A stretch of DNA of 64,000 nucleotides from Nitrospirota bacterium. GTDB taxonomy: Bacteria; Nitrospirota; Thermodesulfovibrionia; Thermodesulfovibrionales; UBA6898. The translations under genes and the position numbers were made by a program. Location of the stretch: assembly GCA_021825365.1 (NCBI GenBank), contig JAKAHR010000004.1, forward strand, positions 81,695-145,694, in the 5' to 3' direction. Positions 6,625 through 8,070 of the stretch are shown piece by piece (position 1 is the first letter of the stretch; every line of letters starts with the position of its first letter). The notes below the pieces were generated by a model. The model saw only the letters and a program-made list of their open reading frames with translations. It did no database searches and was not told where the DNA came from.

Positions 6625-8070
6625 ATGGGTATCGAACGTCTCAGGAGGATCGACGAAACACGACTAGAAGTTCCCATCGACTACCGCGAGGGGATGCGCG
6701 TGCACGGGATCATCTATGCTGACAGCGTCCTTGAAAAAGGCCTCGAGGTCCAGTGCGTCAACCAGGTGGCGAACGTCGCCACCCTCCCCGGCATTGTCAG
6801 GGCATCATCCGCCATGCCGGATATCCATATGGGCTACGGCTTTCCGATAGGCGGGGTTGCCGCCTTTGATGTCAGGGATGGCATCATATCACCGGGCGGT
6901 GTGGGGTACGACATCAACTGAGGGGTACGGCTCCTCAGGAGCAGCCTCTCCAGGGGAGAGGCGCTTCCGAGGATCAGGGACCTCGTGGAGGTCCTTTACA
7001 GCGACGTCCCCTCGGGGGTCGGATCGAAGGGCAGGATCAGGCTCGGCTCTGACGACGAACGGAAGCTCCTGCTGAAAGGCGCGCGATGGGCGGTCGAACA
7101 CGGCATGGGCGAGGAATCGGACCTCGAAAAGACGGAGTCAGGAGGCATGATCGACGGCGCCGACCCCTCGCTCATAAGCACCAAGGCGTATGAACGGGGC
7201 CGCAGCCAGCAGGGCACCCTGGGGTCTGGCAACCACTTCCTTGAGATACAATATGTCGACGAGATCTACGACGAGAAGGCGGCGAACAGCCTCGGCCTTT
7301 TCCCGGACCAGGTCACGGTAATGATCCATACCGGATCACGGGGATTCGGACACCAGGTATGCACGGACTTTCTCGAGGTGATGGAGAGGGCGGTCGGCAA
7401 ATACGGCATCTCGCTTCCTGACAGGGAATTGGCCTGTGCTCCTTTCAGCAGCCCCGAGGCCGGGGATTACCTTGCAGCGATGCGGGCGGCCGCAAACTAT
7501 GCATGGGCCAACCGCCAGTGCATCACGCACTGGACGCGGGAGGCCTTCATGAAGGTGCTCGGAAGATCGCCTCAGTCACTCGGCATGGGGCTGGTGTATG
7601 ACGTTGCCCACAATATCGCAAAAGTGGAGGACCATGTGGTAAACGGGAAGAAGATGAAACTGGTAGTGCACCGGAAGGGAGCCACGCGGGCCTTCCCGCC
7701 GGGACACCCTGAACTGCCCGCTGCATACCGCCACATAGGCCAGCCGGTCCTCATCCCCGGGGACATGGGCAGGGCATCCTTCGTCCTCCTCGGCACGGAA
7801 AAGGCGATGGAAGAGACCTTCGGCTCCACCTGCCACGGAGCAGGAAGGGTGATGTCCCGCCATCAGGCGATCAGGAAGGCCAAAGGCAGGGCGATCTGGA
7901 GAGAACTTGCAGACCGTGGTATCATTGTCCGGTCCGCCGGACGGGAGACCCTGGCAGAGGAGATGAGCGAGGCCTACAAGGATATCTCGGAGGTGGTTGA
8001 TGTCGTACACCGGGCGGGGATATCGAAGAAGGTGGCAAGGCTCAGGCCCCTCGGCGTGGTGAAAGGATAG
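6625..8070 (+). CDS. rtcB: RNA ligase RtcB with in-frame TGA at the catalytic cysteine (candidate selenoprotein)
   Basis: 3'-phosphate/5'-OH RNA ligase used in tRNA and RNA repair; it is Mn2+ and GTP dependent and is guanylylated on a histidine. Starting at ATG 6625 behind GGAGGTGAGG, the frame runs 481 codons, matching the archaeal-type RtcB length. It is interrupted only by TGA at 6919-6921 (codon 99), in the context GGVGYDIN-TGA-GVRLLR. All other RtcB proteins I know have Cys there (Cys98 in Pyrococcus horikoshii), a ligand of the catalytic Mn2+. Downstream motifs are intact: GTLGSGNHFLE, HTGSRGFGHQV, VAHNIAKVE, HRKGATRAFPPGH, and the guanylylated-histidine loop STCHGAGRVMSR. The simplest reading is Sec99. 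Alternatives are a nonsense mutation or a sequencing error. Conventional gene callers would split it at 6921 and restart near 6985. Confidence 0.88.
6919..6921 (+). other. Putative selenocysteine codon (TGA) in rtcB
   Basis: TGA replaces the invariant cysteine codon of RtcB (TGC or TGT), a one-base difference. The frame is open on both sides and both flanks are strongly conserved. Recoding by SelB and tRNA-Sec is inferred; no sel genes lie in this window. Confidence 0.7.
6944..6962 (+). promoter_or_regulatory. Candidate bacterial SECIS hairpin
   Basis: GCCTCTCC and GGAGAGGC form a perfect 8-bp stem closed by the loop AGG. The loop's first G (6953) lies 31 nt after the TGA. Bacterial SECIS elements typically have a G among the first two loop bases and sit about 16-37 nt downstream of UGA, so both conditions are met. 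Confidence 0.6.

Follow-up and report, generated by a model that had tools for sequence, protein, structure and literature searches.

The rtcB gene found in the stretch of DNA analysed here, a window of 64,000 nucleotides from a Nitrospirota genome, carries one in-frame UGA at the position of the cysteine that bridges the metals of this RNA ligase. Very probably, to judge from comparative sequence evidence, this codon is decoded as selenocysteine by means of SelB and tRNA-Sec under the guidance of hairpins located downstream, and the gene product is a predicted selenoenzyme RNA ligase. What can be read directly in the genomes is the codon itself, its recurrence across phyla, the selection exerted on the coding sequence that follows it, the sel genes, and conserved, covarying hairpins. 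It also seems probable, if somewhat less so, that we are dealing with an undescribed and widespread family of selenoenzyme RNA ligases, present in several phyla, in which selenium would bridge the catalytic metals, and that Nitrospirota make use of a new two-hairpin SECIS, where a folded spacer would bring to the UGA a hairpin located approximately 55-75 nt downstream.

The UGA codon of rtcB and its recurrence

The features of the window that matter for the argument are the following:

6108..6578, + strand: archease gene (RtcB activating factor), PF01951, 131.9 bits
6625..8070, + strand: rtcB, RNA ligase gene of 481 codons, one of them an in-frame TGA; product predicted to be a selenoprotein
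6919..6921, + strand: codon 99, a UGA predicted to encode selenocysteine, in the metal-bridging position that corresponds to Cys98 in P. horikoshii RtcB and Cys122 in human RTCB
6933..6972, + strand: predicted SECIS of the Nitrospirota type, hairpin 1, spanning nt 12-51 downstream of the UGA; also present in the MFE fold of the window stretch
6976..6996, + strand: predicted SECIS of the Nitrospirota type, hairpin 2, spanning nt 55-75 downstream of the UGA, with GUG (6985-6987) as its apical loop

Translation confirms what an earlier note, made from the window alone, had described as a gene of 481 codons with a sole TGA at codon 99: there is exactly one internal stop, in the context GYDIN-U-GVRLL. 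Read through, the protein matches the RtcB profile PF01139 from position 1 to 426 of 426, with 594.9 bits for a cut-off of 27. It is a full-length homologue of the known RtcB ligases (P. horikoshii PH1602, human RTCB and bacterial enzymes), with the histidine motifs and, save for its cysteine, the D-x-x-C motif; compared with 1uc2, GYDIN, GSGNHFLE, HTGSRG, VAHN and CHGAGR are all retained except for the cysteine read from UGA; these motifs include the metal ligands and the guanylylated histidine. The alignment with P. horikoshii RtcB (1uc2 and others) spans residues 5-481 and places codon 99 in the column of Cys98, so that the TGA does lie, as had been proposed, at the metal-binding cysteine. 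By homology, this residue is equivalent to Cys122 of human RTCB, which coordinates both metal A and metal B (PMC8668186).

Set beside known RtcB, the window gene has archease as its neighbour and UGA for the metal-bridging cysteine codon. The upstream archease gene had been called intact, in agreement with its profile score, and an archease-like match was found at 112 of the 138 rtcB loci searched, some of which are partial and some duplicates of one genome. Downstream lies a menaquinone-biosynthesis gene (window 8070-8870; PF02621, 222 bits), the first listed start of which overlaps the last base of the rtcB stop codon, suggesting a single transcript. The GTG that starts an open reading frame at 6985-8070 coincides with the loop of hairpin 2, and gene callers may report this false start. 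No NCBIfam model scored above its own cut-off against the window RtcB; the best one below it describes intein-containing RtcB, and its C-terminal part begins at residue 98. In P. horikoshii the splice junction is this same cysteine (PMC4150793). The window genome, a 52-contig draft that is 91% complete, yielded a single rtcB copy.

A member of the same genus (G005), with a protein 95% identical, has TGA at the same rtcB codon, which tells us that a base-calling error is not the cause of the TGA in the window. In the family of the window genome rtcB was matched in 24 of 27 genomes, and among the 21 copies that cover codon 99 there are 14 with TGA and 7 with TGC or TGT, all in the same column. 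Relatives with UGA at this column, which the earlier note had proposed to look for, were also found by a pattern scan of genome contigs with the UGA motif: among the matches listed, 117 of 117 are rtcB frames open past the TGA, some of these at least 117 read-through frames running off the retrieved stretch and some belonging to genomes also present in the family sample. Their record titles are those of Nitrospirae, Deltaproteobacteria/Desulfobacterota and Acidobacteria, with single contigs of Planctomycetota, Methylomirabilota and Binatia; the matches being mostly metagenome assemblies, these single-contig phyla could be misbinned. UGA at the catalytic codon is also present in rtcB stretches recovered by motif-free searches of genomes.

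Among full-length database relatives, the best 120 of the 7998 scored all have cysteine in the column of codon 99 (121 of 121 in the alignment, counting the query as read with C). These best 120, drawn from 5.8 billion predicted proteins, include none more than 84% identical to the window protein, even though a UGA gene with 95% identity exists; gene callers probably cut UGA-containing rtcB genes at codon 99.

Purifying selection acts on the gene both before and after the TGA. Between the window genome and its genus-mate (L010 against L011), dN/dS is 0.062 before the TGA and 0.052 after it, and the values after the TGA are 0.062, 0.020 and 0.054 against three further relatives. With purifying selection on both sides and one internal stop only, the earlier statement that rtcB bears no other damage holds. 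A phage origin of the gene was considered and rejected: blastn against a phage collection gave one 205-base halovirus match, and the UGA-motif pattern had no match in viral contigs.

A quick tree of 107 RtcB proteins, which left out every second class A row (see below) and the short rows, has 12 changes between UGA and cysteine, of which starred branches force at least 5. Two long branches meet in this tree, as it warns, and for this reason the order of deep groups was not used. Within these bounds, the tree indicates that UGA and cysteine have been exchanged repeatedly, at least five times, no direction being inferred. A natural swap can be seen in one genus, where G008 has UGA and SelB while G007 has cysteine and neither SelB nor tRNA-Sec. 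One further genome (G272) has two rtcB copies, G272:C80 and G272:C45 (L236, L237), one with UGA and the other with TGC at the catalytic codon.

Selenocysteine machinery and its association with the UGA

The selenocysteine genes that the earlier note had suggested looking for are all there in the window genome: tRNA-Sec (66.5 bits, cut-off 47), selB (373.8 bits) and selA (587.3 bits), the latter two neighbours on contig C45, and selD (353.1 bits), which has a UGA of its own in the context SCAG-U-AAK:

G000:C16:328-1254 (L213): selD, predicted selenoprotein, with a stable hairpin whose GUU loop lies at nt 34 after the UGA

Another SelD-like match, incomplete and also containing one TGA (G000:C38:13819-14130, L214; 129.3 bits), may be a UGA-containing gene or a fragment. 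Next to tRNA-Sec, neither selA nor selB was recognised among the open reading frames in the last 11.7 kb of contig C35.

Within the family, SelB is above cut-off in 13 of the 14 UGA genomes, and the exception, G025, has tRNA-Sec; tRNA-Sec itself is above cut-off in 11 of the 14, and the three others (G005, G008 and G021) have SelB. In a sample of 395 genomes of the phylum, SelB was found in 172. Among the rtcB matches listed it accompanies 42 of the 44 genomes with UGA, a count in which the position of the codon was read directly in 32, the other 12 resting on the stop count of the search, and in which G272, with one UGA and one cysteine copy, enters once, as UGA. The two UGA genomes that have no SelB at the threshold used are G025 and G261, listed as 96% and 92% complete. 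Genomes listed without a stop in rtcB have SelB in 91 of 105 cases among the matches listed; these were counted as genomes with a sense codon, and the 26 copies retrieved have a cysteine codon. Within the listed phylum matches alone, where almost every genome has SelB, the association between UGA and SelB is for that reason weak (p = 0.093).

The association is strong only once the family f29 is included. Its genomes are absent from the 172 SelB genomes of the 395 sampled; it has 133 rtcB places in 120 of 137 genomes, 126 of which cover codon 99, and TGA is found there in 0 of 126. Two f29 rtcB fragments whose span does not include codon 99 contain a TGA, and one copy (G427:C62:3501-4925) has one in-frame TAG. 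Once the 87 f29 genomes common to both searches are added, the association reaches p = 3.2e-10, a value uncorrected for relatedness. Behind the named loci there are 50 further UGA genomes, 48 of which were chosen outside Nitrospirota by title or hairpin class; SelB is present in 43 and missing in 7.

Hairpins downstream of the UGA

The published bacterial SECIS model asks for an apical loop 16-37 nt after the UGA, with G in the first two loop bases, a stem of 4-16 bp and an MFE of at most -7.5 kcal/mol (PMC13188914); these bSECISearch criteria were applied in part by script. The UGA sites, once deduplicated by their downstream stretch, went from 152 to 125, and 26 cysteine sites were kept. Hairpin energies were compared with a null of 40 synonymous resamplings. 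Two kinds of hairpin are found 3' of the rtcB UGA: class A, mainly in other phyla, and class B, in Nitrospirota and one Methylomirabilota contig; one locus (L108) was counted in class B for hairpin energies and in class A thereafter.

In class A (73 sequences) a stem of 4-9 bp closes a G-containing loop that starts at nt 21-23 downstream of the UGA (in one case at nt 19), with loops such as GGUC, GGUCU, GGGCU, CGUGUU or AGUU. Many of these hairpins have in their stem and loop AGGUCU, as in E. coli fdhF. Energies of -4 or lower are reached in 95% of the sequences against 25% in the synonymous null, while there is no excess at the distal position (16% against 16%). With respect to position, loop G and a stem of at least 4 bp, the three criteria compared, all 73 of 73 agree with the published model, and these hairpins resemble bacterial SECIS in their G-containing apical loop at nt 21-23 (PMC13188914). 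No structure came out of a general RNAalifold consensus of class A, whose two sub-registers are offset by one base. In sub-register A3 (20 sequences) 94.3% of cells are paired; both-sided-change cells (27 against 11.7) and the covariation score (0.527 against 0.187) are above all 500 shuffles and slides, whereas two of the five measures, the number of pairs with both-sided changes and that of pair types, are not above the shuffles. The protein varies there (RSGLE, RTSLV, KTGLV) while the stem stays. In sub-register A4 (54 sequences) the core stem barely varies and covariation is weak: its score was reached by 36 of 500 shuffles, and the structure slid by -2 scores higher.

Class B is organised differently from the published model, since it has two hairpins, and the loop of the second lies beyond the 16-37 nt limits. 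The window's hairpin 1 carries an AGG loop at nt 31-33, which agrees with the model in both position and loop. In hairpin 2 the loop lies at nt 64-66, and a valine codon dictates its GU as well. By comparison, selD in the window genome has an ordinary hairpin with its loop at nt 34. Over 51 sequences, 84.6% of cells are paired in hairpin 1, with both-sided changes in 8 of 13 pairs, and 91.1% in hairpin 2, with both-sided changes in 5 of 9 pairs; on all five measures the observed value for the whole structure was reached neither by any of 500 shuffles nor by any slide. The distal hairpin, in 52 UGA sequences, has an energy of -4 or lower in 92% of cases against 55% in the synonymous null, and a mean energy of -11.05 against -4.75 kcal/mol; at the canonical position, hairpins with any loop are found in 85% against 51%. 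The earlier note had placed a SECIS within 6919-6965: hairpins are indeed present downstream of the UGA, but this stretch is too short, the conserved structure reaching 6996.

Relatives with cysteine offer a useful comparison. In the 26 from Nitrospirota the distal hairpin has an energy of -4 or lower in 15% of cases against 10% in the null, and 64.0% of the cells of the class B structure are paired, with 5 of 500 shuffles as high. The two-hairpin element decays in them, with a residue of the class B structure retained. The choice of codons for identical amino acids was compared as well. For class B (50 of 51 rows, one being too short) its measure is 0.46-0.69 at codons 104-124 against 0.33-0.44 beyond, and for class A it is 0.59-0.75 at codons 104-111 against 0.33-0.44 beyond. 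In the Nitrospirota cysteine relatives it is 0.38-0.52 at codons 104-124 and 0.36-0.48 beyond, below class B in every window of codons 104-124 but 109-111 (0.52 against 0.46). Judging by these values, synonymous codons are constrained by the downstream hairpins and not beyond them.

Alternative readings and the proposed role of selenium

That the TGA would stem from faulty sequencing or from a nonsense mutation of recent date, and that rtcB would be a pseudogene, is a thought naturally prompted by the nature of the data, as most UGA relatives are metagenome assemblies by title and the window genome is itself a draft in 52 contigs. This has a negligible probability: the same codon is found in 117 of 117 pattern matches listed, over several phyla, the coding sequence past the TGA is under purifying selection, and SelB-less family f29 has no TGA at codon 99 in 126 copies. 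It is the recurrence at one codon under selection that refutes it. One might also imagine that UGA is read as cysteine or tryptophan, through a reassigned code or near-cognate suppression, and the cysteine present at this position in the best 120 of 7998 full-length database relatives would fit with the former residue. We regard this as very improbable. TGA ends 14 of the 33 long non-overlapping open reading frames of the window (a mechanical count, doubtful frames included), which makes a reassignment of UGA improbable; the genome has SelB, SelA, SelD and tRNA-Sec; and under plain suppression one would not expect the hairpins to be strong next to UGA yet weak in the Nitrospirota cysteine relatives.

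Two further alternatives accept selenocysteine. It is possible, though we doubt it, that the SECIS of Nitrospirota is hairpin 1 (nt 12-51) and that hairpin 2 only pauses the ribosome: the AGG loop of the window falls within the published model, hairpin 1 has both-sided changes in 8 of its 13 pairs, and class B hairpins at the canonical position exceed the null. Yet the loop of hairpin 1 varies widely in size and letters while hairpin 2 is the more constant of the two, and the selD hairpin of the window genome has a GU loop as well. As to why selenium is used, the main rival is a selenium-dependent switch: selenocysteine would be inserted, but the UGA would chiefly make translation stop at codon 99 when selenium is lacking, turning RtcB off. 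Any selenoprotein gene should have such a property in principle and, with a single rtcB found in the window genome, this bacterium would need selenium for RtcB activity. This remains an unlikely explanation, for in 117 of 117 pattern matches listed the UGA occupies the position of the catalytic metal ligand (the pattern itself required the motif), and it does so too in the stretches from motif-free searches, while the repeated exchange of cysteine and UGA at one column points to chemistry.

We therefore keep to the reading of the UGA as selenocysteine serving the chemistry of the active site. SelB would bind the hairpin and deliver Sec-tRNA; in Nitrospirota it would read hairpin 2, hairpin 1 folding up the spacer. 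Sec99 would bridge two divalent metals in place of cysteine, and the ligase would, like other RtcB, join RNA ends with a 2',3'-cyclic phosphate or a 3'-phosphate to 5'-OH ends, with GTP and archease. Oxidised selenium is more easily reduced back than sulphur, and this is why we prefer reversible oxidation as the reason for its use: the benefit would most likely lie in the return of oxidised selenium to its reduced state, whereas the cysteine is readily oxidised and the metal is then lost. The metal-binding cysteine of RtcB has been termed its "Achilles heel", as its oxidation costs the enzyme both metals and activity; in animals, PYROXD1 and thioredoxin counter this (PMC13247085). An engineered P. 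horikoshii RtcB with Sec98, made via an amber-codon system, has been reported to undergo backbone cleavage near the selenocysteine (PMC4150793). The residue is the same as here, but that protein is artificial, whereas the natural genes have their own UGA and hairpins. This engineered case is the only one seen in the literature searched, in keeping with the earlier note, which knew of no described RtcB with selenocysteine: among the papers listed by the full-text searches, judged by their titles and the openings of their abstracts, there is no natural one, most subscription journals and bioRxiv lying outside these searches, so that there may be an earlier report. The word "ligase" is absent from the main text of a 2026 catalogue of 119 prokaryotic selenoprotein families (PMC13188914), Table 1 of which has entries for hydrogenase and formate dehydrogenase.

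The two-hairpin element of Nitrospirota suggests that the accepted spacing rule for bacterial SECIS may be too narrow. In NiFeSe hydrogenase and in the formate dehydrogenase that contains selenocysteine, this residue is a ligand to the catalytic metal; both are redox enzymes, whereas RtcB carries out nucleotidyl transfer, with no net redox chemistry. If selenium is truly present in RtcB, its use would extend to RNA repair, in a selenoprotein whose reaction is the joining of RNA and not a redox process, and nature would have set up an experiment on the way this enzyme handles oxidation and chooses its metals.
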